Positions 7,937-61,326 of a stretch of DNA of 64,000 bases are shown here, one piece after another. The stretch comes from Parasphingorhabdus marina DSM 22363 (lineage in GTDB: Bacteria > Pseudomonadota > Alphaproteobacteria > Sphingomonadales > Sphingomonadaceae). The translations under genes were made by a program, and so were the position numbers. The stretch is from assembly GCF_900128895.1 (NCBI RefSeq), contig NZ_FSQW01000002.1:1116001-1180000 (forward strand), written 5' to 3'. The notes beneath the pieces are model-generated. The model made no database searches. It was not told where the DNA came from and saw nothing but the letters and a program-made list of their open reading frames with translations. The stretch's first letter is position 1. Every line of letters starts with the position of its first letter.

Positions 7937-7962
7937 CGGAAACAGGCAATCAAACAAAAAGG

Positions 7963-8433: not shown

Positions 8434-8442
8434 GGGTAATAT

Positions 8443-35174: not shown

Positions 35175-35846
35175 ATGAACGTAACCGAAGCCGTCACCAG
35201 TCGCCGATCCGTGAGGGACTTTCTCGACAAACCGGTCGACAAGGCCATCATTGAACGCGTGCTGGAAACCGCGCAGCGCGCACCATCTGGCGGCAACACA
35301 CAGCCCTGGAACGCCTTGGTCGTAGGCGGCGATGCGCTGGTTGATCTAACTGCCAAGATCAAGGCGAAGGCCAAGGAAGCACCGATGGGAGAAGGCATGG
35401 AATATGCCATTTATCCCGCAGAACTCGAAGGCCGCTATGAAGACCAGCGCCGTGCAGTTGGCCGCGACATGTTTGAAAGCATCGGCCTCGCCCGCGAGGA
35501 CAAAATGGGCCGGATCGAACAGATGTTCAAAAACTGGGACAGTTTCGGCGCACCGGTCCAGTTGTTCACCTATACCCGCAAATATATGGGGCCACCGCAA
35601 TGGTCCGACATGGGCATGTGGCTGCAAACAGTCATGCTGTTGCTCCGCGAAGAGGGTCTGGACAGCTGCTCCCAGGAAATCTGGGCCATGTACGGCACCT
35701 ATATGCGCGAATTGCTCAATATTGACGACGATCATATCTTCTTTTGCGGGATGGCGATCGGATATCGGGATCCGGACGCGCCGATCAACAATTTTTCCGT
35801 TCCACGGGTAGCGCTGGACGAAGCGGTAGAGTTTCGCGGTTTTTAA
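35175..35846 (+). CDS. nitroreductase family oxidoreductase
   Basis: This 223-residue flavoprotein has the FMN-binding nitroreductase signature SRRSVRDFLDKPVDKA and ETAQRAPSGGNTQPWNALVV at the N-terminus, and a C-terminal GMAIGYRDPDAPINNF typical of the family. It would reduce nitroaromatics or quinones with NAD(P)H. The start follows the GNAT stop directly. Physiological substrate unknown. Confidence 0.92.
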   Translation: MNVTEAVTSRRSVRDFLDKPVDKAIIERVLETAQRAPSGGNTQPWNALVVGGDALVDLTAKIKAKAKEAPMGEGMEYAIYPAELEGRYEDQRRAVGRDMFESIGLAREDKMGRIEQMFKNWDSFGAPVQLFTYTRKYMGPPQWSDMGMWLQTVMLLLREEGLDSCSQEIWAMYGTYMRELLNIDDDHIFFCGMAIGYRDPDAPINNFSVPRVALDEAVEFRGF

Positions 35847-35909: not shown

Positions 35910-35923
35910 GTGACAATTGTCAC
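35910..35923. promoter_or_regulatory. perfect 14-base palindrome with CRP-type core (GTGA-N6-TCAC)
   Basis: GTGACAATTGTCAC is perfectly symmetric and matches the GTGA-N6-TCAC core of CRP/FNR-family binding sites. It lies 142 bases before the CHAT gene, just upstream of a candidate promoter. The operon it precedes contains a class III nucleotide cyclase, so cyclic-nucleotide feedback is possible. Binding is inferred. Confidence 0.5.
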
Positions 35924-36064: not shown

Positions 36065-39000
36065 ATGATCCGTCTGAAACAAGCAAGCCTGCTGTGCATC
36101 GCTGCTGCTCTTGCCGCAAGCTCGACCATCGCTCATGCCCAGGGCACGCCGGTCACCTTGAGAGACAGCTTTCCGATAGGCAAGAGTGGCGGAATATTGT
36201 GCCAGGTGCAGGACCGCAGCCTGAGCAACAAGGCCAAGGAATCCATGTTTGACCGAAGCTGGGCGGTGGTCTGCCGGGATTCGGCCCGACCAGTCGGATA
36301 TGTCTATTCTTCCCGCTCCACGACCGAACAATTGCTGGGACGGATCGCACCTCACCGTCAGGAGCCGGTTGTCTGTCCCGCGACATCCGGGCCGGTAAAG
36401 AAAGACGGTTTCGTCCAGACCCAGTGCCAGCTTTCCGCAGAACCCGTGTCCTATTCTGTTTTTGAAGGCCGGCAGGGCAATACAAGCTATGTGGCGGAAG
36501 GCCTTTCCGCCTATGACAGCGCGACGCTGCTGGCGCTCAAATCCATCATCAGCGACGAAATTGTCGAAGGTTCGGTTGATGTAGCCCTGACCTCAATTGC
36601 CGATCCGTTCGCTTTCGCCCGGGTCCAGGCTTCAACTCTGCAACCTGAACAGGCTCTTGCAGAAGGATATCGGCGCAATCTCAGCGGCGACTATGCGGAG
36701 GCTGCCGCATTTTTCGAAACCTTGCAACAACGCACGGCCGGGCAAAAGGGTGACGATATTGATCCGGAAGAATATCTCATCAACCGCGCCCTGCAAAAAT
36801 CCAATCTCGGTGAGTTTGCCGAGGCGGAAAGGCTGTTCGAACAGTCCCTGGCGGTATCATCCAGTGATCCGGTGAACCAGCGACTTCGCCGCAACTTCCA
36901 GGGCATGCATCTGCTCAATCAAGGGCGTTTTGACGAGGCGGTCGAACTGATCATGCGTCCTGTGGATGCCGTGGCCGAACAGGAGAAGGCGCTGCTCGAA
37001 AATCTCGAGATCACCTCCCCTATTTCCACCCGGATCAATGGCAGCAACCGCACCGCCAATCTGCTGGGCTTTACCGACGATCTGAAGCTGACAGATCGTG
37101 AACGGTCCGAAATCATCGATGCGCAAGCCCTGCAGCTTGTAGGTACGGCCCAGCGCATTCGCGGCGAACGCGCTTCCGCGCGCAACAATCTGATTACGGC
37201 CTATAATCAGGCGATCGCCGTGCGCGACGGTCGCGTCACATCGATCACCCGTTTGCGGGTGCAGGTCTTGTCAGAACTGGCACTTATCGCCGAGGCAGAT
37301 GGCAATGCGGCCCGCGCAGAGCAGCTGTTGCGCGACGGGCTGGAGCTGCTCTCGATCCAGTATCCCGAAACCAAATCGGTCAATGGCGCGAAGGCGCGGC
37401 TTGCCTCTTTCCTGTTGCGTCAGGATCGTCAGGCCGAGGCCCGGCAGATTTACGCAGAAGTTGTCGACAGCTCGCTGGGCAAACGCAACGCCGTAACCGG
37501 CCTGAACAACCAGCTGGCGCCCTATTTCCGTTTGCTGGCAGATGACCCGGCAGCCGGAGAGGAATTTTTCAAGGCGACCCAGATCCTGATCCGCCCGGGT
37601 GTAGCTGAAACCAACGCGGTGCTCGCCCGGGAGCTCAGCGGCGGGACCGACGAGGCGGCACGGCTGTTCCGGCAGTCGACCAATCTTGCGCGCAATATCG
37701 AACGGCTGCGGATACGCTTTTCCTCGCTCGGCAAGGTGGAGCAGACATCTTCGGTCCGCCGGGCCCGCAATGATCTGGCTTCAGAAATCGAGCAGCTCGA
37801 ACGCAGCCAGCAACTCACCCAGGTCGCACTGGCCGAGTTTCCGCAATACCGGGCCGTGGCCAGCCGCTTTATCAGTCTGGCGGATCTCCGCTCGAACATG
37901 ACGGCGGACGAGGCCTATATGCGCATGGCAATTGTCGGCGGCGACATCTTCATGTTCTATGCGGACCAGAATGACGCCCGCGCCTGGCAGGTCGGCTTGC
38001 GGGAAAGCCAGCTGGACAGCAAGGTGGACAATCTGCGCGCTTCGATATCCACGCTCGAAAACGGACAATATGTCACCTATCCTTTTGACATTGAAGCCGC
38101 GCGAGACCTCTACAAGGACCTGTTTGAGCCGGTTGCGGCCAGGCTGGCGGCTACCGAACATCTGATTTTCGAGCCTGACGGCGCACTGCTGCGCCTGCCC
38201 ATCAATCTTCTGGTCGCCGATGACGCGTCGGTCGCCGGATATCTGGCTCGCACCGGAGAGCCCGATGGCGATCCGTTCGATTTCACCGAAGTCAACTGGC
38301 TGGGCAGCAACACCAATGTCAGCACAGCGGTATCTGCACGCGCCTTTACCGATGCACGGCTGGCGCCCGCTTCGACGGCGCAGCAGGAATATCTCGGCCT
38401 TGGTCAGAACAATCCGGTGCTCGCCGATGCGCGCGTGGCGCAGGACCGCCTGGAGGCGGAGGGGAGTGATGCCAGTTGTCAATGGTCGCTCAGCGAATGG
38501 AACAAGCCGATTTCCGATGCCGAATTGCGGCAGGCCCGGTCGATCATCGGCCAGTCGGGGTCGGAATTGCTGACCGGCCAGGCCTTTACCGACGACAGGA
38601 TCCTCGCAAAGGATGATATCTCGGAATATCGCATATTGCATTTCGCCACCCATGGCCTGGTAACGGCGCCCAATCCGTCCTGCCCGGCCAAACCCGCTCT
38701 GCTGACCTCCTTCGGCGAGTCTGAATCGGATGGGCTGCTGGCCTTTGACGAGATTTTTGAACTGAAACTGGATGCGGACATTGTCATTCTGTCGGCCTGC
38801 GATACGGCCGGAAAAGCCAGTATCTCGGCCACACGGGAAGCCGGTGTGAGCAGCGGGGGCGGCACGGCTCTGGACGGACTGGTCCGCTCCTTTATCGGCG
38901 CAGGCAGCCGCTCGGTACTGGCCAGCCACTGGCCCGCGCCAGATGATTTTCAGGCCACGGAGCGGCTGATTGGCGGCCTGTTTGAAGATGGTCAGGGTCA

Positions 39001-39187
39001 GTCGGTGGCGACAGCCCTGCGGACGTCCCAGCGCAAGCTGATGGAAGATCCGGTCACATCGCATCCCTATTACTGGTCCGGTTTTGCGATCATCGGTGAC
39101 GGAGCCAGACCGTTTCTTCCCGGCCAGCAGACGGCGGCCACTGGCGGAGACAGCAACAATCCGGTGCGGGAAAATGTCTTGAAATAA
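36065..39187 (+). CDS. exported TPR-CHAT caspase-like protease
   Basis: The 1040-residue protein has a signal peptide (MIRLKQASLLCIAAALAAS, cut near AHA|Q, residue 25). TPR-like helical repeats follow (about residues 180-500: NLSGDYAEAAAFFETLQ, SNLGEFAEAERLFEQSL), and a CHAT domain forms the C-terminal 400 residues. The caspase-type dyad is present: His863 in HFATHGLVT and Cys912 in ILSACDTAG. It should therefore be an active cysteine protease of clan CD, working in the periplasm or outside. Its stop shares one base with the cyclase start. Its target is unknown; the secreted giant exoprotein of the same run is a candidate. Confidence 0.88.
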   Translation: MIRLKQASLLCIAAALAASSTIAHAQGTPVTLRDSFPIGKSGGILCQVQDRSLSNKAKESMFDRSWAVVCRDSARPVGYVYSSRSTTEQLLGRIAPHRQEPVVCPATSGPVKKDGFVQTQCQLSAEPVSYSVFEGRQGNTSYVAEGLSAYDSATLLALKSIISDEIVEGSVDVALTSIADPFAFARVQASTLQPEQALAEGYRRNLSGDYAEAAAFFETLQQRTAGQKGDDIDPEEYLINRALQKSNLGEFAEAERLFEQSLAVSSSDPVNQRLRRNFQGMHLLNQGRFDEAVELIMRPVDAVAEQEKALLENLEITSPISTRINGSNRTANLLGFTDDLKLTDRERSEIIDAQALQLVGTAQRIRGERASARNNLITAYNQAIAVRDGRVTSITRLRVQVLSELALIAEADGNAARAEQLLRDGLELLSIQYPETKSVNGAKARLASFLLRQDRQAEARQIYAEVVDSSLGKRNAVTGLNNQLAPYFRLLADDPAAGEEFFKATQILIRPGVAETNAVLARELSGGTDEAARLFRQSTNLARNIERLRIRFSSLGKVEQTSSVRRARNDLASEIEQLERSQQLTQVALAEFPQYRAVASRFISLADLRSNMTADEAYMRMAIVGGDIFMFYADQNDARAWQVGLRESQLDSKVDNLRASISTLENGQYVTYPFDIEAARDLYKDLFEPVAARLAATEHLIFEPDGALLRLPINLLVADDASVAGYLARTGEPDGDPFDFTEVNWLGSNTNVSTAVSARAFTDARLAPASTAQQEYLGLGQNNPVLADARVAQDRLEAEGSDASCQWSLSEWNKPISDAELRQARSIIGQSGSELLTGQAFTDDRILAKDDISEYRILHFATHGLVTAPNPSCPAKPALLTSFGESESDGLLAFDEIFELKLDADIVILSACDTAGKASISATREAGVSSGGGTALDGLVRSFIGAGSRSVLASHWPAPDDFQATERLIGGLFEDGQGQSVATALRTSQRKLMEDPVTSHPYYWSGFAIIGDGARPFLPGQQTAATGGDSNNPVRENVLK

Positions 39188-41259
39188 TGGTGAGTGAAGC
39201 GACCACACAGGACCCGGCCAATGGTGGCCGCGATGTCGAAAAGGAAGCCCGGAGCGCCGTGCAGTCAATCCGCCGGATTTTCGCACAGCTGGGCCCGGTC
39301 CGCCTCGCGTCGACGCTGTTTTTCCTGATCCTCGCCATTCTGATTGCCGGCCTCAGCTGGAAGACTCCGCTGATCCAGGATGCCGAACGGGCGCTTTATG
39401 ACCTGAGGGCATCGGTCTTCGCCCCGGTTGTCGAGAAAGACGATCGCATCGTCATGATCGTCTACAATGAAGAGACGCTCAGACTGACAGGACAGCGATC
39501 ACCAGTCGACCGCACGATCCTGGCGCAATCACTCGAGACCATCGATGCCGCCGGAGCGAAGTCCATCGGGATCGATATCCTGTTCGACATGCCCCAGGAT
39601 GACGATCCGTTGCTGATCAACATGTTCCGGTCAATGCAAACACCAACGTTTCTGGCCTATGCCAATGCAGCGACCAATCCGGAAATCACCTTTGCCCAGC
39701 AGCAGTTTCTCGACGACTATCTGACGGAATTTGCCGACAGCAACGTGAAACCGACAACCATCCGGCTCGATACGGACGGCGACGGTGTCCAGCGCCGCTG
39801 GAACGCGCCGCCCGAGGGTTCGCCGCCATTCCTGGCCATTGCGATGACCGGACCCAATCCGGCCTTTGCCAGCTATTCCGGGGCGATCCGCTATTTTAAC
39901 GGAGTGAATGACGAAATTCCCGTCTTTGACAAATTCCCGATAGAAAGCTTTGCAGACCCGGCAACGGCGGACATGCTCGCAAGCTTTATCAAGGACAAAT
40001 ATGTCCTGATCGGTGGCGATTTCATTGACCGTGACCGGTTCGAAACACCCATCAGTTCCATCGCCACCAGCCAGGATGATGTCAGCACCCAGAGTGATGA
40101 CGCCAAGATGATCGGGCTGGAAGTCCATGCCCACATGCTGGCCCAGTTGCTCAATGATGACCAGCCAGCTGCTATTCCGACCTGGGCCCTCTGGGTTGCC
40201 GCTGTGATCGTCGCCGCATGTGGCGGATTGTCTGCCGTGTTGATCGGCAACTCGATCAAGATTGCCCTGATCCTCATCAGTCAGTTCCTGTTCTTCGTCA
40301 TATTCCCCTTTGTGCTCCACAATATCGGCATAGATACACTCACCCTCCCTGCTTTTGGATGGGGTTTGGGATGGTTGCTGGGCTACGCTTCGGTCGGATC
40401 GGCGGCGCGGACGATCAATTCCAAACAGCGCAGTTTTGCCCAGAATGCCCTGGGGAAATATCTGCCGAAATCGATTGCCGGCGAAATCCTTCGCGATCCG
40501 GAAAAACTGGCCCTCCACGGCGAAAAGCGCCAGATCTTTGCGGTATTCACGGACCTTGAGGGGTTCACCAAATTGAGTCACGCGATCGAGCCGGAAATGG
40601 TCGCGACCCTGCTCAATGACTATCTCGACCGTCTCAGTGACGTGGCGCTGGAATATGGCGGAACGATCGACAAATTTGTTGGCGATGCGCTGGTCGCCTT
40701 CTGGGGCGCGCCCATTGCCTATGCGGATGACGGCGAGAGAGCCGCAAAAGCGGCTTTTGCGCTCTATGAAGCAGGTGAAGAGTTCCGCAAAAACGTCCCG
40801 GAAGGGGTGCCACCCATCGGTCGCACCCGGGTGGGCATGCACTATGGCGATGCGATTGTCGGCAATTTCGGGGGTGAAGGCCGGATTCAATATACTGCTC
40901 TCGGGGATGCGATGAATACCGCCGCGCGGCTCGAAGCCGCGAACAAGGCGCTGGAAACCAAGGTACTGGTCAGCCGGGAAGCCATGGAGAAAACCGGACT
41001 CGACTGGTATCGCCCAATGGGCCGGATCACCCTGCGCGGCCGCTCGACGCCGGTCGATGTGTTTGAACCTGTGCCCGACTGGGAAGAAAAAGATCGCGCA
41101 GCAGTGACCGCCGTCATAGCAGCCCACCAGCAAGGTGATAATGATGCTGTTCAGGCACTGGGGGCCATGATCAAGCAATATGGCGAAGATCTCGGCCTCG
41201 CCAATCTGATAAAACGACTTGAAAAGACAAAACATGGAGAAAGCTATGCTCTCGGTTAA
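39187..41259 (+). CDS. CHASE2-domain class III adenylate/guanylate cyclase
   Basis: The 690-residue protein has one N-terminal transmembrane helix (about residues 40-58), a CHASE2 extracytoplasmic sensor (about 60-310), three further helices (about 335-415) and a cytoplasmic class III cyclase domain. Both metal aspartates are present, Asp456 in FTDLEGFT and Asp500 in VGDALVAFWGAP, and the IDKFVGD Lys plus YTALGDAMNTAARLE favour ATP as substrate. CHASE2 would sense something in the periplasm and set the cAMP level. The 3' end overlaps the start of the next small gene. Confidence 0.9.
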   Translation: MVSEATTQDPANGGRDVEKEARSAVQSIRRIFAQLGPVRLASTLFFLILAILIAGLSWKTPLIQDAERALYDLRASVFAPVVEKDDRIVMIVYNEETLRLTGQRSPVDRTILAQSLETIDAAGAKSIGIDILFDMPQDDDPLLINMFRSMQTPTFLAYANAATNPEITFAQQQFLDDYLTEFADSNVKPTTIRLDTDGDGVQRRWNAPPEGSPPFLAIAMTGPNPAFASYSGAIRYFNGVNDEIPVFDKFPIESFADPATADMLASFIKDKYVLIGGDFIDRDRFETPISSIATSQDDVSTQSDDAKMIGLEVHAHMLAQLLNDDQPAAIPTWALWVAAVIVAACGGLSAVLIGNSIKIALILISQFLFFVIFPFVLHNIGIDTLTLPAFGWGLGWLLGYASVGSAARTINSKQRSFAQNALGKYLPKSIAGEILRDPEKLALHGEKRQIFAVFTDLEGFTKLSHAIEPEMVATLLNDYLDRLSDVALEYGGTIDKFVGDALVAFWGAPIAYADDGERAAKAAFALYEAGEEFRKNVPEGVPPIGRTRVGMHYGDAIVGNFGGEGRIQYTALGDAMNTAARLEAANKALETKVLVSREAMEKTGLDWYRPMGRITLRGRSTPVDVFEPVPDWEEKDRAAVTAVIAAHQQGDNDAVQALGAMIKQYGEDLGLANLIKRLEKTKHGESYALG

Positions 41260-42043
41260 GAAAAGCGCGGTTCCGTCCGCAAATATGTCGAAATTCCTGG
41301 GCAAGGCGGCCTTGGCCGTTGCGCTGGCAACCGGCCTGAGTAGCGCAGCCTTGGCGCAAAACATGGTGGTCCGCTCGACCGGACCCTCGGCGAGCAGCTA
41401 CCCGGCCGGTACCAAGCTGGCCAACAATGCCCGGATCACGCTCAAAAATCTCGACTCCGTCACCGTGCTCAGCAAGTCGGGGACCCGCGTCCTTCGCGGA
41501 CCGGGGACATTCTCGCTCAACCGGACGACCCGGGCCAACGCAACCACGACGGCGCGACTGGAACGGTTCATCACCAATCGCGGCAGCAGCCGCGCCCGGA
41601 CGGGAGCAGTGCGCAGCGCGGGCGTGGAAGTTGCCACCGCGGCTCCGAAAAACCCGAATCTCTGGTTTCTCGACGTGACCAAGGGCGGCAAATTCTGTGT
41701 TGCCAATCCGGATACGCTCGTTCTTTGGCGGCCGGACTATACGGGGTCCGCAACGGCGAGCATCGTCGAACCCACCGGCGGCAATGTGACCGAGGTCGAA
41801 TGGCGCAAGGGCAATCCGCTGAAAAAATGGCCAACCGCAGAAGCACCGCTCAGCAGCGGCGCGAAATATCAGGTAATCGGATCCAACGTCCCGCAAGCGG
41901 TTGAAGTGAATTTCGTATTGCTTGGCAAGACACCGGAAAATCTGGACGAAGCCGCTGTGGCGCTGATTGAAAATGACTGTCAGAGCCAGCTCGACCTGCT
42001 CGTCGACACATTGGGAGGCGGATCGGATCCGGAACAGGGATAA
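41246..42043 (+). CDS. small exported protein of unknown function (FecR-like outline)
   Basis: The ATG at 41246 has GGAG six bases before it, although earlier starts at 41219 and 41234 overlap the cyclase more. The 265-residue product has a signal peptide ending SSAALAQN. The first part of the mature protein, SYPAGTKLANNARITLKNLD then SVTVLSKSGTRVLRGPGTFS, resembles a FecR-type beta fold. I cannot name the function. Its place between the cyclase and the TpsB genes suggests an envelope accessory or sensor of the same system. Confidence 0.7.
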   Translation: MLSVKKSAVPSANMSKFLGKAALAVALATGLSSAALAQNMVVRSTGPSASSYPAGTKLANNARITLKNLDSVTVLSKSGTRVLRGPGTFSLNRTTRANATTTARLERFITNRGSSRARTGAVRSAGVEVATAAPKNPNLWFLDVTKGGKFCVANPDTLVLWRPDYTGSATASIVEPTGGNVTEVEWRKGNPLKKWPTAEAPLSSGAKYQVIGSNVPQAVEVNFVLLGKTPENLDEAAVALIENDCQSQLDLLVDTLGGGSDPEQG

Positions 42044-42054
42044 CAGGGAAATCG

Positions 42055-42086
42055 CCTGTCGGCCGGATTGAGGGCCGGCCGACAGG
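42055..42086 (+). other. 10-base-stem hairpin before tpsB
   Basis: CCTGTCGGCC (42055-42064) pairs perfectly with GGCCGACAGG (42077-42086) across a 12-base loop. There is no T run, so it is not an ordinary terminator; it may stabilise or partly stop the transcript between the small exported gene and tpsB. Confidence 0.5.
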
Positions 42087-42149
42087 GTGAACAATGGAGG
42101 CAGTCCGATCGGGGTCGCGCGAGGAATGCCGAAACAAACGGGGATAAAC

Positions 42150-43940
42150 ATGTCGCCAATGCGCGTAACGACAAAAACAGCCATCACGGCTTCGGCCATA
42201 GCCTTGGTCGCAACCAGCCATCCGGCCCTGGCGCAGTCTTCTGTTGCCGCGCCCACGCGAGAGGAAATTCAACGCAGCCTGAGAGACCAGGCCGAAGCCA
42301 GCCAGGCACAGGCAGTGACCATTGACGGAGACGTGGAACGCTCGCCCTGTCCCCTCGCCAATCCCGAATTTTCCGACGTGCGCTTCACTTTGCAAAATGT
42401 TGAATTTTCCGGTCTCGGCGCAATCGATGCCAGCATATTGCGCTCCTCCTACGAACAATATGTCGGTCAGGACGTTCCCGTTGCCATCGTTTGCGATATC
42501 CGTGACCGCGCGGCGACAACCCTGCGCGGAGCCGGATATTTGGCCGCCGTCCAGGTCCCTCCCCAGACAATCTCCGGCGGCACCGTGAAGTTCGATGTGC
42601 TGCTGGCGCGGATGACATCGGTACAGGTCCGGGGCAATGCGGGTCCATCGGAAAAATTGTTGCAGCAATATATCCGGCAGCTGACCGACGAACCGGTTTT
42701 CAATATCGAAGTGGCCGAGCGCTATTTGCTGCTTGCACGGGATATTCCGGGACTCGACGTACGTCTTTCGCTCCGTCCTGTTTCAGCGGAGACCGGCGGC
42801 CAGCCCGGTGATGTCGTTGGCGAGTTCAATGTCACACGCACCCCTGTCTATGTTGATGCCAATATCCAGAATTTCGGCTCCGAAGAAGTTGGCCGGTTCG
42901 GCGGCCTGTTGCGCGCGCGTTTCAACGGCCTGACCGGTCTGGGGGATGAAACGACCATCAGCGTCTATTCCACCGCCGATTTCAAGGAACAGCAGGTCGT
43001 TCAGATTGGCCATGAGTTTCGGGTTGGCGGAGAAGGCCTGAAACTTGGGGGTGATTTCACCTATGCCTGGACCCGGCCCGAACTGCCGGGCAATTTCAAC
43101 ATCCGGTCGGAAACGCTGGTGGCCAATGCCTATGCGACCTATCCTTTCGTCCGGAAGCAGTCCCACAATATCTTCGGCACGATTGGTTTTGAACTGATCG
43201 ACCAGAAAACGGATCAGCTGGGTATCCGCACCAACGAAGATCAACTGAGCATCGCTTATGCGCGGGTGGATTTCAATTCCGTGGAACCGGGGAGTATTTC
43301 CGGGCGCGGCGGCTATTCGGCTTTCGAGCCCAAATGGGGCATCGCCGGATCGCTCGAAATCCGCCAGGGACTTGACATTCTTGGCGCCAGCGAAGGTTGT
43401 GGCGCCGGTTTCGTCAATTGCATCGGACAAGCTGTCACGCCCAACCGGATCGATGGTGACCCGACAGCATTCGTGCTCAGAGGTCAGGCCAGGCTGGACT
43501 ATCGGCCCGATCCATTGCTGACGTTCACGCTGAAGCCAAGGTTTCAGTTTTCTTCCAACGCCCTGTTTTCCTATGAGGAAATTTCGGGCGGCAACTACAC
43601 CACCGGCCGCGGATATGATCCGGGCACAATCATTGGTGACAGCGGCTACGGCCTGCAGACGGAAGTGAGCTATGGCTCGCTGGTCCCGGATTCTCCCGAT
43701 GGCATCGCCTGGCAGCCCTATGTGTTTTTCGACGGGATGGCCGTGTGGAACAGGAATATCCCAGGCGATCCCCAGAGAATTTATTCCGCAGGCGGCGGCA
43801 TCCGCGCCACAATCGGGCGCCAGGCCAATCTGGACCTGATGGCAGTCGTGCCGCTGAAGCGCGGACCATTCCAGACGCGCCGCGACAGCGCACGTGCGCT
43901 GCTGACGCTGACGGTGCAGCTCGCACCCTGGACGCGATAG
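42150..43940 (+). CDS. TpsB transporter of a two-partner secretion system (ShlB/FhaC family)
   Basis: The ATG at 42150 has GGGGAT eight bases upstream; a GTG at 42087 and ATGs at 42126 and 42159 are alternatives. The 596-residue product has a signal peptide ending HPALAQ, a POTRA region (FTLQNVEFSGLGAIDASILR and VPPQTISGGTVKFDVLLARM), and a 16-strand-type barrel ending LTLTVQLAPWTR. It should export the following giant protein through the outer membrane. It precedes tpsA by 46 bases. Confidence 0.88.
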   Translation: MSPMRVTTKTAITASAIALVATSHPALAQSSVAAPTREEIQRSLRDQAEASQAQAVTIDGDVERSPCPLANPEFSDVRFTLQNVEFSGLGAIDASILRSSYEQYVGQDVPVAIVCDIRDRAATTLRGAGYLAAVQVPPQTISGGTVKFDVLLARMTSVQVRGNAGPSEKLLQQYIRQLTDEPVFNIEVAERYLLLARDIPGLDVRLSLRPVSAETGGQPGDVVGEFNVTRTPVYVDANIQNFGSEEVGRFGGLLRARFNGLTGLGDETTISVYSTADFKEQQVVQIGHEFRVGGEGLKLGGDFTYAWTRPELPGNFNIRSETLVANAYATYPFVRKQSHNIFGTIGFELIDQKTDQLGIRTNEDQLSIAYARVDFNSVEPGSISGRGGYSAFEPKWGIAGSLEIRQGLDILGASEGCGAGFVNCIGQAVTPNRIDGDPTAFVLRGQARLDYRPDPLLTFTLKPRFQFSSNALFSYEEISGGNYTTGRGYDPGTIIGDSGYGLQTEVSYGSLVPDSPDGIAWQPYVFFDGMAVWNRNIPGDPQRIYSAGGGIRATIGRQANLDLMAVVPLKRGPFQTRRDSARALLTLTVQLAPWTR

Positions 43941-43986
43941 GACAAAGAAACACATGCATGTGTCACAGACAGTTAGAGGCAAGACA

Positions 43987-46900
43987 ATGACCAAAGCAAC
44001 GAACGTTCATCCGACGGACGATGCCAGATCGCAAAAAGCCGGTCGCAGCAATGCTGCCGGTTTCGCACGTCGGTTCTCTTCCTCGTGGAAACTGAAATTG
44101 CTTGCTGGCGGCTCACTGTCGGCTGCCGCATGTCTGATGGCTACCGCTCCCGCGCTGGCGCAAGCCATAGCGCCACGCAACAATCCCAACCAGGCATTCC
44201 AGGCTCTGGACACATTCGTTCTGGGCACGGGAAATGTTTCGGTCTCGACGGATGTCGACACCGTGACCATCAATAGTGCGCAAACCGTCATCAACTGGTC
44301 ACCACTCGACAACGCGGACATCAATGCAAACCCAGATCTGATCAATTTGCTGCCCGACGGCACCAGTCTGATTTTTGAGGGGCCGGTCGGCGGATATACG
44401 GTACTCAATCGCATTGTACCGACTGCCAACCTGATGGGTCAATTCCGCGGCGTGGCGATCAGCGGCGATGTTCAGAGCCGGCTGGGCGTCGGCGGGGCAA
44501 CAGGCGGTGATGTCTGGTTTTACAGCCCGGGCGGCATTCTGATTGGCGGTACCGCAGCATTTGACGTCGGCAGCCTGATACTGACGACCAATGATATTGA
44601 CACCACGGGCGGATTGTTCGGCAGCAATGGAGAAATCCGATTTCGTGGCGCCGCAGATAGCCTGTCTGCAGTGACCATTCAGGAAAATGTCGACATCACT
44701 GCCGATAACTCCGGAAGCTATCTCGCGCTGGTTGCCCCGAGAGTCACACAGGGCGGGGAAATCCGTGTCAATGGCTCCGCCGCTTATGTAGCAGCCGAAC
44801 AGGCAGATCTGACGATCAACAATGGTCTGTTTGACATTGCCATCACCGTTGGCACCGCCGATTCCGTTGGGGTAGAGCATACGGAGACGGGAATCACCAC
44901 GGGACCCTCCGCCGCGCCCATTGCAGATGACATGGGAACTCCGGGCATCAATGAAGCCAATCGCGATGCCCAGGCCATTTATCTCGTCGCGGTCCCCAAA
45001 AATGACGCGATCACCATGCTAGTGGGCGGAGACATCGGATATGAACCGGCCACCACGGCGGGTGTCGTCAATGGCGAAGTCATATTGAGTGCCGGTTACA
45101 ATGTATCCGTTGGCGGGACCGAGCAAAGCGCACAGGTGATTCTGGCGGATGATCCGGTCAGCGCATTTCCCACCAATATCGAATTTACGGGCGGCGACAT
45201 TCGGGCAGACCTGACGGCGATCGCAGCCGACACGATCGACGCACTGATTGACGGATCGACGGCACTGACCATCGGCAGCGAGGTCCAGTTCCAGGATTAT
45301 GATGCGAGATTTATCGCAGGAGATCGCGTCGATGTTGGCGCGGCCAATGGCGGGGCCTTGCGCGTGCGCGGCAATCTCGACATTCAGGCGGGCGACAACG
45401 AGACCGGCGGCACGATCAATATCCTGGCAGAAGATAATCCGTTCGATGCCGATGCCATCGGCGAGCTGATTGTCAACGGGAGCTTCACTACCGACGCCAG
45501 CGGAATTGGCATCAGCGAACCACTGATCGCGGGTAACGGAGATGATGCCACCGGGGGCACAATCAATATTGCCGTATCTGACGGTGCCGAACTGACAGTT
45601 GACGGTTCCGCCGAGTTTATTGCCGATGCCAGGGGCGGCATCAGGTCTGACATGGCCGGCAGCTCGACTGGCGGCGACATTTCGCTGACCCTCACCGGTG
45701 CGACTGGTCAAATGAATTTCAACGGCGGTCTCACGCTTTCCGCTTCTGGCCTGAACAACACTTCAGATGCCGCGATCGGGAACAGCGGTACCGGCGGGAC
45801 CCTGCTGCTGGACCTGCAGGATGGCCAGTTTTCCGCCAGCGATATCATCCTCGATTTCACCGGCAACGGCATCGAAGGCGGTAGCAGTACCCAGCAGAGC
45901 AATGACGGCTTTGGCGGGGACCTGACCATCAATGTTTCCGGCGGCACGCACAATATCAGGAGCATTTTTGCCAATGGCGGAGGGATTTCCGGAACCAGCA
46001 GGGATGCGATCGGTGACGATGTCGACGGAAGGGCCACCGGCGGTAGCGCCGCTTTCAATGTAAGCGGCGGTGATGTGACCATCACCAATCGGCTGTTTCT
46101 CGGCGTGAATACGTCCGGAGATACCGCGCCGGGTGACAGTGCGAATATTGATCTGAATGTGACGAATTCCGCCAACTTGCAGATTCAGGGAGATCTGGAG
46201 CTCAACACACAGTCTTCCGGCGGATTGCCAACAAGCAGCACTTTTGCCGGCGATGTCAATATTACCGTCGACAATGCCAGCTTCAGCTTCGATTCGCTGG
46301 ACATCCGGGCGGACGGTGCCCCGGACCTGTTCGAATTCAATGAACGCGGCCGGGATTTTACGGCCGGTGATGTCACTATTATTTCCCGCAACGGCGGGAC
46401 TTTCTCTGGCGGATTTGGGGTCATTTCCGCAAGCGCTTCCGGAAATACCGGAACAGTGGGCGATGGCACGGGCGGCAATGTACTTCTCAACGCCAATAAC
46501 GGGGCGATCAGTTTCTCCAGCAGTCTTTTCGTCAATGCCAACGGCCAGGGAGCAACGGGCACACGCGAAGACGGATCTGTTTCTTCCGGAACCGGTGGCT
46601 CGGCCACATTCCGGGTTGAAGGCGCCGCTGGATCAATGTCGTTCAACAACATCTTCACCAGTTCCGACGGTTCCATATTTTTCGATGTTGAGAGCGGTAT
46701 TGAAGATTTTGACGGTGACGGAGGCAATGGTATCGGGGGCACCACGACCTTTGATCTGCTCGGTGGAACATTCAACGCCAACAGAGTCACTGTCGGGGCT
46801 GACGGATTTGGCGGACCGGGTGGCGACACCCAGGGCGATGACATGGCTCCAGTGCCTGACTTTCTTGTCGTGGCTCCCGTGCCTCAGATGGCCTTAAATG

Positions 46901-49900
46901 TCGGGCCCAAGGCCGGAACAGGCGGTGATGGAATTGGCGGCGACGTCATATTCAACCTCGACGGAACCACCGCGACCGTCAACGATCTGGATGTCACTTC
47001 GAACGGTTTTGGCGGCGATGGAGGTCGCGGGGAATTCAACAACGGAACCTCGGGTGGCGACGGCGGCGGCAGCTTTGGCGGCAACGCCACGTTCAATGCC
47101 ATTTCAGGCACGCTGACCGTCAATAACACGCTTTCAGTTGAAGCCAATGGCGGTAGTCAGTTCGGCGCCGGCCGGGGTGGGAACGGAGATGGATCAGCCG
47201 GTGGCGATGGCGGTGTGTCTGTTGGCGGCACGGCAATATTCAACCTGGATGGAACCTCGACCATCAATGCTGGAGTAGTTGTGGTCAGCACCGACGCATT
47301 TGGCGGCGGCGGCGGTTTCGGTGACCTCACTTTCGACAATGGCATGCTTGTACCCGCGGGGCCTGGTGGCAGCGGCGGCAACGGCACAGGTGGAGATGCG
47401 ATATTCAACAATAGTACCGGCACAATCAGCTTCAACCAGCTTACGGTCCAATCCATCGGAACCGGGGGTCAGGGCAGAGCCAGTATCGGCTTCACCGTCG
47501 GCGAATCCCCTGACCAGGGCGGTGACGGCGGTGATGGCGCGGGTGGCACCGCAACGATCAATCTCAATCAGGATGAAAACGGTTTTCCAGCTTACTCCGT
47601 TCTGGCAAATGGCATTGGCGGCAATGGCGGCGAAGGCCTGCTCGCGGGCAATGGCGGCGACGCGACCGGCGGGATCGCGTCACTGAATGTCAACAATGTC
47701 TCGGTGCAGCTGGGAGATCCGGTCATTCTGGCGGTTGCAACCGGAGGAAATGGCGGATTTGGTGATGGTATCAACGCCAGCAATGGCGGAAATGGCGGCG
47801 ATGCCTTTGGCGGTTCGGCGCGCCTGGAAGTGACCGGAACGGATGGTTTTGTACCGATCGACAACAGTTTCACGATCAACAGCGATGCGACCGGCGGAAA
47901 TGGCGGTAGCGGCAATGGCAATTTCATCGGCGGGACGGCCGGTGACGGTGGCAATGGCGGAAACGGAACCGGCGGCAGCTCGGAAGTGATTGCCCGTACC
48001 GGCGGTGTTGTCGAATTCACCCCCACACCGACACCCGGGCCATCAACATTCCAGCTTTCGAGCAGCGGTACAGGCGGACGCGGCGGCGATGGTGGTAATG
48101 TCGACATGCTCAGCGGTGGAAGCGCTGGTGATGGCGGCGACGGCGGCGCGGGTACTGGCGGATCGCCGACCTTGCTCGCCCAGGGCGGCACCATCACAAT
48201 GCAGGACATCGATCTGCTCGGCAACGGGGCCGGCGGAACCGGGGGTAGCGGCGGCACGGACTTTACCATGCAACTCGGCCTTGACGGAGCCGGAGGCGAC
48301 GGTGTTGGTGGCAACCCTGTCGTCGAGGTCCAGGAAGGCAGCCCGGGCATCATCACGCTCAGTGACACGTTCATTCAGGCCAATGGTGTCGGCGGCGCGG
48401 GAATCACCATCGGTACCGGCGGCGGTGGCCGCATCGAAGTCACCGATACATCAGTCGACCCAGCCGGGATGATCACCTTCGGGAACCTGACTGCAGAAGC
48501 GTTGACCTCGACACTGGGCGGAACTGGCGGCTTTTTCGTGAGCGGCAATAGTGATGCGATAACGGTGCTGGGCAATCTGACGGTCAATGTCGCCGACAAT
48601 ATTGAATATGCCTTTGACGGCACCGGTCAGATGACTGTTGGCGGCATGGCAATGCTGACCAGTGGCCAGGATATCCTGTTTACCCATGTCAATAACGCGG
48701 TGCCGACCATCTCGCTGGACGTGACGGGCACGTTCCAGGCCACGGCGGCCCGCGATTTCCTGTCCTCGGACAATGCGATTATCCGGGCCGGTTCGGTGCT
48801 GGATATCCGGGCTGAAGGCAATGCAACGGCGCACGATCTGCGGGCAATTGAGCTGATCAATCTGTCCGCCGGTCAAAATGCAGCCCTCAACAATGCCGAA
48901 ACGACCGGCCCGCTGTCGGGATCGCTGAATTTTGACGGCATTTTTGTTGATGCTGGCCTGAGTTTCAACAATCTGGGCATGGAACAGTTCGACCCTGCGT
49001 TCAACGCCAGCGTCACTGGTGACATCAATTCCTTTACCGATGTTCAAATCCGTGCTGGCGGCAATGCCATTGCCGTTGCCGGTACCGATGTCACCGCCAA
49101 TAACCAGCTTCTCGTCCAAACCGGTGACGATATCATTATTGAAAGCGGTGCCAGCCTCGTCTCCGGTGCCAATCCGGCGGCGGCGCCCAATCCGCTGGAC
49201 CCGTTCAATGACGGCTCCAACCTGATTTTGCGCGCTGGCGAGCTGGATCTGCTGCTCACCAGCCCGCGTCTGACGCCGATTGCATCCATTGTCGCGGCCG
49301 GTAACCTGGGAGCGAATGACAGCGCCGTATTGCTGACAGCCAATGCCATTGATGGCCTGGGAGGCACGATCAGCGCCGGTTCGATCAGCGCCGACATCAA
49401 CGACGCACCATCCAACGCCGATATCGCCATGTTTGGGCAGTCGGATGATAACGGCCTGCTCAGCACGCAATGTCTCGAAGGCAATCTGTGCCTCGGCGTT
49501 CTGACCGCGGACAATATCGTTTCCATCGGGCAGGACGGCCTCCCGATACAGGCGATCATTGAAAATGGCGACATCATTGCCAACCGCATACTCGTGAGCA
49601 CCCGCCGCGACATTGTGATGGGCACCAATGGGATACCTTCGCGGTTCATCGGGTCGGATGAAGTGTTCGTGAACAGCACGGAAGGTGATATCGATCTGAT
49701 GGATGCCGAACTCAACAGCGATTTGCTTGGCGTCGATGCCGCCGGCAGTCTGCTGGGAACCGGCTCTCTGATCAGCGACAATGACATTGGTATAACGGTC
49801 GGAGGGGATATCAACGCTGCAGCCATCGATACCGGTGGTGAACTGACCACCGTGGCTGATCGCGGAGGTGCGCCGGAAGGATTCTATTCGGTGCCGGGCA

Positions 49901-51930
49901 GCATGATCGTTGACAGCCTTTCGGTCGGAACTGGTGATGTCAATTATGATGCCGGAGCGGACTTCATCTTTGGCAGCATTTCGGTGCCGGGAACGGACAT
50001 CAACCTGGTGGCGCCACAAACGATCTCGATCGACAGCACATCCGGTGCCGAGAATATCATTCTCGATGGTGGTGAAATCCTGTTGGGCGATATTTCGGCA
50101 AATGATCAGGTTTTCGCAACATCTGCCAGCAATATCGATTTCGGTTCGATCTCGGCGGGTAATGATGTCGACCTTGATGCGGCAGACAATGTATTCGGAT
50201 TTGATCTGGATGCGGGCAGCTTTGTCTCGGTGTCCGGACCCGGCAGCATCGATATCAGCGTCCTGACCGCCGGCGCAGATGTCAGCCTGTTCTCGGATGG
50301 CTCCATCCTCATCGGCGATCTGAATTCGGGTGGTGTTGTCGAGGCCTTTGGTGGTGATATCGATATCACCTCGTCCGGCAGCCTCGAGTTTACCGACGCG
50401 TCTGCCAGCAATGGCGATATCAATATAGTGACCGCTGGTGATCTGTTGATGGACGAAACAGATGCGACGGGAAGTATCTTCCTGCAATCCACCGGCGGTT
50501 CGATAGATCTCGGTACAACTCTCGCCGGTGGAAGTTCGATCGGCGACCCGTTCGGAGCTGGCCTGTTGACCGTGGATGCTGCTGTGAACATTGCGCTGAA
50601 CAGCGAAGCCTACGGACCCGAAGGCCTGTTCCTCACGGCTGGTTCCCTGATCGACATTCAGGGCGAAGCGATTGGTGCAGAAATTTTCACAACCAGCGCC
50701 AACATGAATCTGGAGGGTCTGCTGGGACGGACAGATGCTACCTTCAATATCGAGATCGAGTCTAACGGCACCACCCAGATGGTGCTCGGCGGAGTTACCG
50801 ATCTCGGTGGGTACACGCTGGACAATCTGGAATTCGCCCGGATCGCCTCAGGCGGGGATCTGACCATCTTTGCGGCCGATACAGGACAAACCGGATTTGA
50901 TCTGACGGTCCTGGATCTCGACGCGGTGGTCGCAGACAATGTTTCGGGACCGCAATCGGCCAATATTGGGCTTTCAAACACCTTGAACTTGCTGGCTGAC
51001 CAGTCGATCACCGTTGCGGGACAGCTCAGCCTGACCAACGCCAATAGCGGCACGGGTCTCAACATCGACGCCGGAGCTGATCTCTTCGTTGATGCCCCGC
51101 TTGGCCTTGTGCAAATTCTTGACGCCAATAACGGATATCAGGGACTGATCACGCTGAACGGTGACGATATCTTTGCCGGGACCCAGCAGGCTCGAACAGA
51201 CATTGTCGGTTTAGGCACAGCGGCAATCGACAGCCGTCTCGCCAACAACGACGGACTGAACATCACAGACGGATTAATCCGCGCCAACGAAATTGTGTTC
51301 GAAGCCGGTCGTGCGGCATTTGTACAGAATACCGTCAGCGGCACCGATTTCGACGATCGCCGCGGATTCACGGCACAAATTGTGACAGTCAACGGTCGCA
51401 ACGCCACCGCTCCGATCATCGTGATCAACGGTACGGTGGGTGCCACAACCGGCGTGGATGCGCTGCTTGCTGTAGGCATCGGCAACGGATTTGCACCAGA
51501 CAGCACGATCAACGGCTGCATATTGGCTGATCCTAGCAGTTGTGGACCCACACCGACTCCAACGCCGACCCCCACTCCGACACCGACACCGACACCCACC
51601 CCAACTCCAACACCGACCCCAACTCCGACGCCCGAACCGACGGATGAGGATCCGGTGCAGGATATCATCGAGGAAGAAGTGACCCCGGAGGAAACGAACC
51701 TTAACTCGGATCCGTTTGAATCCAATCTGATTGAACTCAAGGAGAATGAGGAAGTTGTCGAGGATCCGCTGATTGACGAACCGGTCACCGGGGCGGGGAA
51801 TGATGATCTCTGGATAGGCGGCCTGTCCGGCGAGGAAGAAAGCGAAGAAGAGTGTGAAGCCGGGGAAAGTGGCGAAGGCTGCGGAACCGGAACTTCTGGT
51901 TCCGGAGACCAGTCACCCGCTGGCAACTGA
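43987..51930 (+). CDS. giant TpsA-type exoprotein (filamentous haemagglutinin family)
   Basis: The ATG at 43987 has GAGG eight bases before it (43954 is an alternative), giving 2647 residues. The N-terminus is a long signal with a basic extension (about 55 residues, ending ATAPALAQ). A TPS domain follows, in which the usual NPNG motif is replaced by YSPGGILIG (near residue 179). The body is a predicted right-handed beta-helix with Gly-rich repeats near residues 970-1485, then a PT14 linker and an acidic C-terminus. Close Cys pairs occur in QCLEGNLC and GCILADPSSC, and at residues 2623/2632 near the end. It is probably a surface fibre or adhesin exported by the adjacent TpsB. Confidence 0.88.
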   Translation: MTKATNVHPTDDARSQKAGRSNAAGFARRFSSSWKLKLLAGGSLSAAACLMATAPALAQAIAPRNNPNQAFQALDTFVLGTGNVSVSTDVDTVTINSAQTVINWSPLDNADINANPDLINLLPDGTSLIFEGPVGGYTVLNRIVPTANLMGQFRGVAISGDVQSRLGVGGATGGDVWFYSPGGILIGGTAAFDVGSLILTTNDIDTTGGLFGSNGEIRFRGAADSLSAVTIQENVDITADNSGSYLALVAPRVTQGGEIRVNGSAAYVAAEQADLTINNGLFDIAITVGTADSVGVEHTETGITTGPSAAPIADDMGTPGINEANRDAQAIYLVAVPKNDAITMLVGGDIGYEPATTAGVVNGEVILSAGYNVSVGGTEQSAQVILADDPVSAFPTNIEFTGGDIRADLTAIAADTIDALIDGSTALTIGSEVQFQDYDARFIAGDRVDVGAANGGALRVRGNLDIQAGDNETGGTINILAEDNPFDADAIGELIVNGSFTTDASGIGISEPLIAGNGDDATGGTINIAVSDGAELTVDGSAEFIADARGGIRSDMAGSSTGGDISLTLTGATGQMNFNGGLTLSASGLNNTSDAAIGNSGTGGTLLLDLQDGQFSASDIILDFTGNGIEGGSSTQQSNDGFGGDLTINVSGGTHNIRSIFANGGGISGTSRDAIGDDVDGRATGGSAAFNVSGGDVTITNRLFLGVNTSGDTAPGDSANIDLNVTNSANLQIQGDLELNTQSSGGLPTSSTFAGDVNITVDNASFSFDSLDIRADGAPDLFEFNERGRDFTAGDVTIISRNGGTFSGGFGVISASASGNTGTVGDGTGGNVLLNANNGAISFSSSLFVNANGQGATGTREDGSVSSGTGGSATFRVEGAAGSMSFNNIFTSSDGSIFFDVESGIEDFDGDGGNGIGGTTTFDLLGGTFNANRVTVGADGFGGPGGDTQGDDMAPVPDFLVVAPVPQMALNVGPKAGTGGDGIGGDVIFNLDGTTATVNDLDVTSNGFGGDGGRGEFNNGTSGGDGGGSFGGNATFNAISGTLTVNNTLSVEANGGSQFGAGRGGNGDGSAGGDGGVSVGGTAIFNLDGTSTINAGVVVVSTDAFGGGGGFGDLTFDNGMLVPAGPGGSGGNGTGGDAIFNNSTGTISFNQLTVQSIGTGGQGRASIGFTVGESPDQGGDGGDGAGGTATINLNQDENGFPAYSVLANGIGGNGGEGLLAGNGGDATGGIASLNVNNVSVQLGDPVILAVATGGNGGFGDGINASNGGNGGDAFGGSARLEVTGTDGFVPIDNSFTINSDATGGNGGSGNGNFIGGTAGDGGNGGNGTGGSSEVIARTGGVVEFTPTPTPGPSTFQLSSSGTGGRGGDGGNVDMLSGGSAGDGGDGGAGTGGSPTLLAQGGTITMQDIDLLGNGAGGTGGSGGTDFTMQLGLDGAGGDGVGGNPVVEVQEGSPGIITLSDTFIQANGVGGAGITIGTGGGGRIEVTDTSVDPAGMITFGNLTAEALTSTLGGTGGFFVSGNSDAITVLGNLTVNVADNIEYAFDGTGQMTVGGMAMLTSGQDILFTHVNNAVPTISLDVTGTFQATAARDFLSSDNAIIRAGSVLDIRAEGNATAHDLRAIELINLSAGQNAALNNAETTGPLSGSLNFDGIFVDAGLSFNNLGMEQFDPAFNASVTGDINSFTDVQIRAGGNAIAVAGTDVTANNQLLVQTGDDIIIESGASLVSGANPAAAPNPLDPFNDGSNLILRAGELDLLLTSPRLTPIASIVAAGNLGANDSAVLLTANAIDGLGGTISAGSISADINDAPSNADIAMFGQSDDNGLLSTQCLEGNLCLGVLTADNIVSIGQDGLPIQAIIENGDIIANRILVSTRRDIVMGTNGIPSRFIGSDEVFVNSTEGDIDLMDAELNSDLLGVDAAGSLLGTGSLISDNDIGITVGGDINAAAIDTGGELTTVADRGGAPEGFYSVPGSMIVDSLSVGTGDVNYDAGADFIFGSISVPGTDINLVAPQTISIDSTSGAENIILDGGEILLGDISANDQVFATSASNIDFGSISAGNDVDLDAADNVFGFDLDAGSFVSVSGPGSIDISVLTAGADVSLFSDGSILIGDLNSGGVVEAFGGDIDITSSGSLEFTDASASNGDINIVTAGDLLMDETDATGSIFLQSTGGSIDLGTTLAGGSSIGDPFGAGLLTVDAAVNIALNSEAYGPEGLFLTAGSLIDIQGEAIGAEIFTTSANMNLEGLLGRTDATFNIEIESNGTTQMVLGGVTDLGGYTLDNLEFARIASGGDLTIFAADTGQTGFDLTVLDLDAVVADNVSGPQSANIGLSNTLNLLADQSITVAGQLSLTNANSGTGLNIDAGADLFVDAPLGLVQILDANNGYQGLITLNGDDIFAGTQQARTDIVGLGTAAIDSRLANNDGLNITDGLIRANEIVFEAGRAAFVQNTVSGTDFDDRRGFTAQIVTVNGRNATAPIIVINGTVGATTGVDALLAVGIGNGFAPDSTINGCILADPSSCGPTPTPTPTPTPTPTPTPTPTPTPTPTPTPEPTDEDPVQDIIEEEVTPEETNLNSDPFESNLIELKENEEVVEDPLIDEPVTGAGNDDLWIGGLSGEEESEEECEAGESGEGCGTGTSGSGDQSPAGN
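46900..48440 (+). repeat. Gly-rich repeat region inside tpsA
   Basis: Codons for GG(D/N)GG(N/D)G-type runs recur every few dozen residues between FN-rich strands (for example GGNGGDAFGG, GGDGGNGTGG). The array is degenerate, not exact, and lies in frame. It would form glycine loops on a beta-helix. It also causes long antisense open frames that are not genes. Confidence 0.75.
51547..51630 (+). repeat. 14-unit Pro-Thr repeat in tpsA
   Basis: Fourteen consecutive Pro-Thr pairs use mixed codons (CCC/CCG/CCA with ACA/ACT/ACG/ACC), so the repeat is likely kept at protein level rather than being a fresh slippage product. It makes a stiff linker between the beta-helix and the acidic tail. Confidence 0.85.
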
Positions 51931-61321: not shown

Positions 61322-61326
61322 GACCG

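Follow-up and report, generated by a model that had tools for sequence, protein, structure and literature searches.

Two-partner secretion genes in a conserved run with a TPR-CHAT protease and a CHASE2 cyclase in Parasphingorhabdus marina

Why should a two-partner secretion (TPS) pair share a run of genes with a protease and a nucleotide cyclase? The question is raised by a window of 64,000 nucleotides from Parasphingorhabdus marina DSM 22363 (contig NZ_FSQW01000002.1, positions 1,116,001 to 1,180,000 of the forward strand), in which five consecutive plus-strand genes encode a TPR-CHAT protease, a CHASE2 class III cyclase, an exported-looking protein (here gene 3), the outer-membrane transporter TpsB and the exoprotein TpsA. 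An earlier note on this DNA had proposed, as possibilities, that the protease processes or releases the exoprotein and that the cyclase reports on its state or sets its expression. The parts of the run, their conserved order and co-occurrence in relatives, a tail common to the TpsA proteins and a CRP-like site upstream can all be read directly. The explanation that best covers the whole, a five-partner TPS operon with its own protease and cyclic AMP (cAMP) feedback, has in our estimation an even chance of being right.

The five-gene run and its conservation

The genes of the run and the main features of the protease are as follows.

36065..39187, + strand: TPR-CHAT protease gene, 1040 aa (open reading frame, Pfam)
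38096..39100, + strand: CHAT domain, residues 678-1012 (Pfam)
38651-38653 and 38798-38800, + strand: codons of the CHAT catalytic dyad, His863 and Cys912
39187..41259, + strand: CHASE2 class III adenylate cyclase gene, 690 aa (open reading frame, Pfam, residues)
41246..42043, + strand: gene 3, exported-looking protein with no family assigned; the start may be 41234 or 41246
42150..43940, + strand: TpsB outer-membrane transporter (POTRA_2 and ShlB); the start may be 42087, 42126 or 42150
43987..51930, + strand: TpsA exoprotein, 2647 aa, with its ATG at 43987

All five frames are open where the earlier note had placed them and in the order it gave. Its account of the spacing is equally accurate, in that the CHAT and cyclase genes overlap by 1 base (TAATG) and the cyclase gene and gene 3 by 14 bases, with gaps of 106 bases from gene 3 to TpsB and 46 bases from TpsB to TpsA, both within the 110 or so bases it had allowed. 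The run is flanked by a nitroreductase gene (35175-35846) and, from about 51970, by a gene that we take from its sequence to be cysS-like, and base composition is even over the region. Rfam and tRNA scans of the 64-kb window returned no match, and a consensus promoter scan gave 6 promoter-like sites as against 7.1 expected by chance.

The first protein matches the Pfam family CHAT at E=2e-55 and TPR_2 barely over the cut-off; with TPRs and a CHAT domain that carries the His-Cys dyad at the residues named earlier, it belongs by architecture among the TPR-CHAT proteases. Its AlphaFold model (mean predicted local distance difference test score, pLDDT, 76.3) finds its best structural match in the TPR-CHAT protein Csx29 (E=1.6e-10), followed by DdvA and separase, and by eye its N-terminus, MIRLKQASLLCIAAALAASSTIAHAQ, is signal-peptide-like. 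HFATHG-type and LSACDT-type catalytic motifs are present in 80/80 CHAT relatives; two Sphingomonas genomes, in which the CHAT reading stretches each hold one internal stop, were excluded from that alignment (L062 and L065; L numbers denote loci and G numbers genomes). The transporter was also correctly named: TpsB matches ShlB (E=1.7e-15, 57.7 bits) and POTRA_2 (E=2.4e-08, 34.2 bits), both over cut-off. The first 300 residues of TpsA match the TPS domain PF05860 at E=6.2e-06, with 26.8 bits lying under the Pfam cut-off of 33.5, and the whole 2647 aa gave no Pfam family match at E<=0.1. TpsB and the order of the genes mark the run as a TPS (type Vb) system, with a TPS domain match in TpsA that stays under cut-off. 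Identity as a contact-dependent inhibition (CdiA) system was considered and rejected, since TpsA as a whole gave no Pfam match that could be a C-terminal toxin domain and the gene after it, where an immunity gene would stand, is cysS-like.

The search for the same set in other sphingomonads, on which the earlier note had staked its idea in advance, revealed strong co-occurrence and did not refute it. Among 80 sphingomonad loci, the best 80 of 117 located with the CHAT protein, 62 hold CHAT, cyclase, gene 3, TpsB and TpsA in the order of the window, and 3 begin in that order and then meet a contig end (L042, L073, L107). Another 14, mostly Erythrobacter-type, have CHAT-TpsB-TpsA directly, without the cyclase pair (cyclase and gene 3), and one (L102) has CHAT alone on a short contig. 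TpsB comes next, directly or after the cyclase pair, in all 77 loci whose contig continues past CHAT. Because the run is conserved in related genomes, chance is excluded as its source.

A second set comprised 147 related genomes including that of the window, 32 of them, the window's again included, from the same genus. CHAT is present at >=60% identity in 28 of these 32, and the other 4 are assemblies 80 to 89% complete. Linkage was counted on 91 of 97 CHAT rows, the rows set aside being the second pieces from G021, G051, G022 and G026 plus two short matches, one in G079 (50%) and one in G001 (57%); TpsB lies within 26 kb in 54/91, always on the same strand. The link was found in 34/36 matches of at least 48% identity (the misses must be G017 and G021, with TpsB on another contig) and in 14/19 at 39-47%, where the five misses are short matches. 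Among the long matches at 39-46% TpsB lies upstream of CHAT in 14/14, the order being TpsB-TpsA-CHAT where it was read (L145-L147, L154, L158). Below the 39-47% class TpsB is linked in 6/36. On these sequences the tie to TPS holds for this CHAT lineage, not for every CHAT. Identities of CHAT and linked TpsB rise and fall together (r=0.97 over 54 pairs), a correlation to which relatedness contributes.

The cyclase pair is itself a unit: 49 of the 50 gene 3 matches entered have a cyclase match within 1.5 kb (54 cyclase rows were entered, weaker CHASE2 or cyclase matches being left out). Outside the genus, cyclase, gene 3 and TpsB occur in 13/13 genomes with this CHAT (>=39% identity), and the cyclase occurs in 2 of the 102 genomes without it (G033, and G049, where TpsA is cut by a contig end). 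In four genomes (G046, G047, G064, G072) the cyclase pair lies far from the CHAT-TpsB-TpsA trio or on another contig. Such co-occurrence without linkage favours a shared function over chance neighbourhood, although Fisher values overstate the case because the genomes are related.

In an even phylum sample of 249 genomes, 150 CHAT and 141 ShlB matches were among those listed (the CHAT list covers 72 of 81 genomes, and second ShlB pieces were left out). They form 16 CHAT-ShlB pairs within 20 kb in 14 genomes, where random placement in 4-Mb genomes would give 1.25. One relative (G183) has ShlB (divergent), CHAT, a CHASE2-cyclase and DUF928, and another (G329) a CHASE2-Ser/Thr kinase, DUF928, CHAT and ShlB; in Nostoc sp. 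HK-01 a CHASE2 protein comes after CHAT, and then a protein with a sub-cut-off DUF928 match. The recurring combination is therefore one of CHAT with a CHASE2 sensor and a small protein, and its outputs vary. That the genes are mere neighbours, carried together with no common function, might be argued from the 134 of 150 listed phylum CHAT matches that are not TPS-linked; the co-occurrence of unlinked modules, the existence of more than one gene order and the conserved tail described below make this a strongly disfavoured view, to which we give very little credence.

Several loci from these surveys deserve separate mention. L187 and L190, both from phylum relatives, carry CHAT, ShlB and DUF928 with a CHASE2 sensor, which at one locus has a cyclase as its output and at the other a Ser/Thr kinase. 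A PpiC-type prolyl isomerase gene stands directly 5' of ShlB in two CHAT-bearing loci (L188:318-1304 and L189:12669-13625) and is perhaps an extra export helper. CHAT and TPS genes lie inside type VI secretion clusters on plasmids of Caballeronia sp. M1242 (L121) and Sphingomonas parapaucimobilis (L124).

The TpsA tail as a candidate substrate of the protease

If the protease serves the TPS pair, TpsA might be expected to carry something for it to read, and the C-terminal end of TpsA has two candidate features.

51511..51543, + strand: TpsA Cys pair NGCILADPSSC, a possible cysteine hook; Cys codons 51517-51519 and 51541-51543
51649..51813, + strand: TpsA C-terminal tag region, its end being LIDEPVTGAGNDDLW (tail reading and profile)

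In 28/28 complete CHAT-linked TpsA proteins (window included) the final ~170 residues contain a pair of Cys spaced 7 or 8 residues apart, usually in the context STINGCxIxxPxSC. In most it is followed by a Pro-Thr or other linker, a DPLIDEPVTGAGNDDLW-type tag and an acidic end, the last 100 residues of the window TpsA having a net charge of -31. The tag consensus is PLIDEPVTGxGNDDLW-like, strict in 21 of the 28 and degenerate in 7, and the final part of the tail is a sharp conserved motif. Four further alphaproteobacterial TpsA proteins have an NGC-type pair, those of Sphingobium (tagged) and of G275, Sphingomonas parapaucimobilis and G178 (all three with degenerate ends), so that a close Cys pair occurs in 32 of the 33 alphaproteobacterial CHAT-linked TpsA read; the disulfide is predicted. 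By comparison, 10 TpsA-like frames whose TPS loci have no linked CHAT (L148, L149, L153, L161, L165, L166, L167, L175, L177, L182) contain neither the NGC-type pair nor the tag; Cys pairs of another kind, spaced by 11 to 27 residues, occur in 4 of them. These controls exclude the TPS regions in which no long TpsA-like frame was present (L162, L164, L168-L174, L176, L178, L180, L181), and no TpsA-like frame was found with the divergent CHAT of G043 and G062:C8. This tail on CHAT-linked alphaproteobacterial TpsA, with its Cys pair and usually its tag, is a new find of the present analysis.

A profile of the tag, built from 14 tails, gave 50 matches (those 14 among them) in 41 of the 147 genomes, all in frames of at least 679 aa, and missed three CHAT genomes (G062, G078, G079). 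Two apparent cases of a tag without CHAT were set aside: the TpsA of G049 runs into a contig end, and G008 has only a 30% CHAT match and a 656-aa TpsA remnant between the usual flanking genes. A tagged 656-aa remnant stands at L200:3600-5567 between nitroreductase-like and cysS-like genes, the run being otherwise missing from this assembly, which is 82% complete. The untagged TpsA of a TpsB-TpsA pair in L179 (G061) does carry the NGC pair; a cyclase match and cytochrome genes are close by, and G061 as a whole gave no match to CHAT. The genome of the window also encodes an orphan TpsA on another contig (L141:7702-15570) with both hook and tag, and no TpsB or CHAT lies within the 18 kb read around the gene; it is perhaps exported and read in trans by the system of the window, whose CHAT is the single one found in the genome.

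On the side of the protease, the TPR region is rich in invariant arginine: Arg makes up 13 of 57 invariant positions as against 44 of 420 residues overall (hypergeometric P=0.0026, uncorrected, for a single test picked after looking), and 5 invariant positions are acidic. An acidic ligand, the TpsA tail for one, would fit such a region. A lipoprotein-like signal on the CHAT gene of another locus (L183, residue ~1447 of frame 3092-10417) fits a periplasmic place for these proteases. A TpsA-CHAT fusion was considered for G178, in which a 2442-aa frame after TpsB has CHAT at its end. It was rejected because the true CHAT gene, which has a lipoprotein-like signal, begins inside that frame and TpsA occupies a frame of its own, of 1542 aa; the first ~1445 residues of the long frame look like another gene read in the wrong frame.

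From these features we infer that TpsA is exported through its own TpsB and that the exported CHAT protein cuts and releases it. During export the C-terminal Cys pair would form a small disulfide loop that halts TpsA in the pore and leaves the acidic tail in the periplasm; there the TPR groove of the protease would bind the tagged tail, and CHAT would cut adjacent to it, so that the exoprotein is freed or matured, as LapG does for CdrA. The earlier proposal of processing or release thereby gains circumstantial ground, from a tail found on CHAT-linked TpsA and absent from the ten others, the Arg-rich TPR region and the co-divergence of CHAT with TpsB (r as above), while cleavage itself stays a prediction.

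The same gene set, tail and TPR region would also suit an export-pore quality control, in which CHAT clears TpsA stalled in TpsB, the tail is read only on a jam and normal TpsA is not matured. A sharp motif at the end of the tail goes beyond the apparent need of a jam sensor, and general periplasmic proteases already do such work; we consider this reading unlikely. A defence or conflict device, with TpsA sensing an attacker or neighbour at the surface and CHAT as a damage-triggered effector, is less probable again. It draws on CHAT and caspase-family genes near each other on cyanobacterial and other plasmids and on the two TPS-CHAT sets within type VI secretion clusters, and has to contend with the signal-peptide-like start of CHAT here, with a run that holds its place before the cysS-like gene in several same-genus genomes, and with a conserved tail that it leaves unexplained.

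The cyclase pair, a CRP-like site and a cytochrome cluster

If tail and protease suggest a release step, what would the cyclase and gene 3 add to it? The second protein matches CHASE2 (E=1.4e-28) and Guanylate_cyc (E=5.7e-15) in Pfam, and its nearest solved relative is CyaB (E=4.7e-31). Asp456 and Asp500, the two metal residues reported earlier, are present, as are Lys496, Thr570, Asn577 and Arg581; with the roles that we take these six residues to have, the set is in line with an adenylate cyclase. The CHASE2 domain, the cyclase domain and these metal and substrate residues place the protein among the CHASE2 class III adenylate cyclases.

Gene 3 had been described as FecR-like, a label that is unsupported, since the window protein has no Pfam match and no PDB structure resembles its model (mean pLDDT 73.5) at E<=0.001. 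When 30 members were compared with Pfam, the only matches were T2SSC in 11 (best E=0.0016) and SecG in 3. FecR was rejected as the family for want of a FecR domain match, and DUF928 on an hhalign probability of 9 against an alignment of 4 proteins (one without a Pfam match).

A site upstream of the run bears on the output of the cyclase.

35910..35923, no strand assigned: CRP-like palindrome GTGACAATTGTCAC, ending 141 bases before the CHAT start codon

We take this palindrome to be a CRP site core, on our understanding of the consensus as TGTGA-N6-TCACA; the exact core occurs twice in the 64-kb window as against 1.07 expected. In a test devised after the palindrome was seen, allowing <=2 mismatches to TGTGAN6TCACA within 300 bp upstream, a match precedes 55/64 cyclase-bearing operons, 1/13 cyclase-less ones and 136/2280 random windows; L050, L069, L073 and L102 were left out, having too little sequence before CHAT. 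The match is lacking before five unlinked cyclase pairs, three TpsB-first sets and the orphan TpsA. GTGA-N6-TCAC half-sites are kept in 14/14 upstream regions of the closest relatives, window included, where identity is 0.92 over the site and 0.52 around it, the second best of 266 windows. Variants of the site persist in Sphingopyxis and Novosphingobium and rank 7 of 244 and 15 of 244, respectively; in Novosphingobium 3 of the 6 rows are degenerate. The genome also encodes a CRP-family protein (G000 C1:695533-695796) with GEIALLDGGDRTA, presumably a cNMP-type (cyclic nucleotide monophosphate) motif, and with REHINR, presumably its recognition helix, so that both a TGTGA-N6-TCACA-like site and a CRP homologue, the parts of a CRP-cAMP circuit, are present. 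The CRP-like site upstream of cyclase-bearing operons is likewise a new find of this analysis and a predicted binding site.

In the proposed circuit the CHASE2 cyclase would sense the state of the envelope and make cAMP, with the exported gene 3 protein as its likely periplasmic partner, and a cAMP-bound CRP-family regulator would act at the upstream site and so adjust the whole operon. The earlier suggestion that the cyclase sets expression thus has a conserved CRP-like site and a CRP homologue with a cNMP-type motif on its side, and binding is the part that is predicted.

The cyclase pair has other possible company about 6 kb downstream of the run, where genes for a c554-like cytochrome and an HbpS-like lipoprotein, together with one for a 697-aa protein and a long frame bearing ten CxxCH motifs, form what may be an electron-transfer cluster.

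57903..59324, + strand: multihaem cytochrome c (Cytochrome_C554), outside the five-gene run
59321..61321, + strand: HbpS-like protein with a lipoprotein-like start, in the wider neighbourhood

The cytochrome/HbpS-like cluster can be seen at 57903-63420 of the window and at L209:2046-6392, its 697-aa protein being without a Pfam match. Further along the latter locus (L209:13016-18653), three small exported-looking proteins have a common GGAMRRQ...VKVSYA-type tail that to us looks like exosortase-type sorting. The cyclase and gene 3 might belong to the cytochrome/HbpS-like cluster and have regulation in common with CHAT-TPS but no mechanistic role in it, a reading that we hold to be improbable. 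The unlinked cyclase pair adjoins multihaem cytochrome and HbpS-like genes in G046, G047, G064 and G078 and lies within 8 kb of them in G072, and an HbpS-like gene occurs in 12/13 CHAT genomes outside the genus as against 7/102 others; in Sphingobium the cytochrome/HbpS-like genes come directly after TpsA. This has to be set against the pair's retention between CHAT and TpsB in 62 loci and the phylum relatives G183 and G329, in which CHAT occurs with a CHASE2 protein, DUF928 and ShlB. The cyclase may also serve both CHAT-TPS and the cytochrome/HbpS-like cluster.

Several of the observations weigh against the operon with its own protease and cAMP feedback. The five genomes in which the cyclase pair is unlinked to CHAT suggest that its partner may be the cytochrome/HbpS-like cluster. 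Nine of the 64 cyclase-bearing operons lack the CRP-like site, no match precedes CHAT in the Sphingobium operon, and the site test is confounded by ancestry, the 13 cyclase-less operons being 11 Erythrobacter-type and 2 Sphingomonadaceae. In G081, where the CHAT system is divergent, the TpsA-like frame lacks both the Cys pair and the tag, and the CHAT-linked TpsA proteins of Caballeronia, G168 and G180, outside the class, have no NGC-type pair. The tag could be read instead by TpsB or another protein, a caspase-like cysteine protease in the oxidising periplasm is unusual, and most of the listed phylum CHAT genes have no TPS link.

Comparison with known systems

The earlier note knew of no characterised system with this gene set, and within the literature searched that stands: among the best matches in open-licence literature, no paper treats a CHAT domain together with two-partner secretion, filamentous hemagglutinin or CHASE2. 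What it did not name is a close functional parallel, CdrA-CdrB of Pseudomonas aeruginosa. LapG is a cysteine protease, and LapD takes part in that system. A cysteine hook at its C-terminal end keeps CdrA in the pore at the cell surface, and periplasmic LapG, controlled by cyclic di-GMP, releases it with a cut close to that end (PMC11898600, PMC7616799, PMC5422565). It is the nearest working parallel in combining hook, periplasmic protease and second messenger, which here are predicted from sequence; the TpsA of the window has a C-terminal Cys pair able to form a LapG-type hook, with a predicted disulfide. The differences are that the protease here is a TPR-CHAT protein, not a Peptidase_C93, that its gene lies within the TPS operon, and that the messenger enzyme is a cAMP-type cyclase. 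According to a 2017 review (PMC5422565), TPS operons appear not to include maturation protease genes. LapG was rejected as the true release protease here, there being no Peptidase_C93 match in this genome; nor is there one in 35 of the 41 CHAT genomes. Within the family C93 occurs in 6/41 genomes with CHAT and 8/47 without (P=1), and in view of this lack of anti-correlation its absence is not evidence that CHAT has replaced LapG. By analogy the locus may work like a hook-and-protease TPS system; by membership it is not a LapG system.

Csx29 of Craspase (type III-E CRISPR) has the TPR and CHAT architecture in common with the protease and is its best structural match. Its cleavage is lost once 20 C-terminal residues of the substrate are removed (PMC10028731), and its substrate thus needs an intact C-terminus. 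Csx29 acts with the CRISPR effector Cas7-11, whereas the protease here looks exported and sits with a secretion pair. CtpA also has a part in the processing of Bordetella FhaB. The FhaB-FhaC system shows regulated C-terminal processing of a TpsA, with SphB1 and DegP involved (PMC5422565, PMC8263021), and SphB1 is encoded apart from fhaB-fhaC (PMC5422565); the Bordetella proteases are unrelated to CHAT. In the BiofilmReg operon of Burkholderia, as far as the part of PMC5192318 at hand describes it, a gene for an exported LysM-FecR protein adjoins that for a CHASE2 histidine kinase. The exported-protein gene next to a CHASE2 sensor gene is the likeness; the kinase output, the absence of any CHAT or TPS gene named in that part and the lack of a FecR domain match in gene 3 are the differences. 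Unlike the C-terminal disulfide anchor of HMW1 and HxuA, the Cys pair here has a linker and then a tagged acidic tail after it.

These comparisons lead us to propose, tentatively and at somewhat less than even confidence, a separate class of surface-protein release in bacteria, in which an exported, operon-encoded TPR-CHAT protease of clan CD (caspase-like) reads a short C-terminal tag of the PLIDEPVTGxGNDDLW type, acidic and with a Trp, and so releases or matures giant cysteine-hooked exoproteins, with cAMP feeding back on the operon; the gene for one such exoprotein lies elsewhere in the genome. The carriers are environmental bacteria, and each step is open to testing. If the proposal is true, a two-partner system would hold its own protease, a readable substrate tag and a second-messenger loop in one run, and extracytoplasmic CHAT proteases would gain a substrate. 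TPR-CHAT would then stand as a third tail-reading cysteine protease beside LapG, which acts on adhesins, and PorU, which acts on type IX cargo, and would be a second, unrelated answer to the LapG-type problem of surface-protein release.

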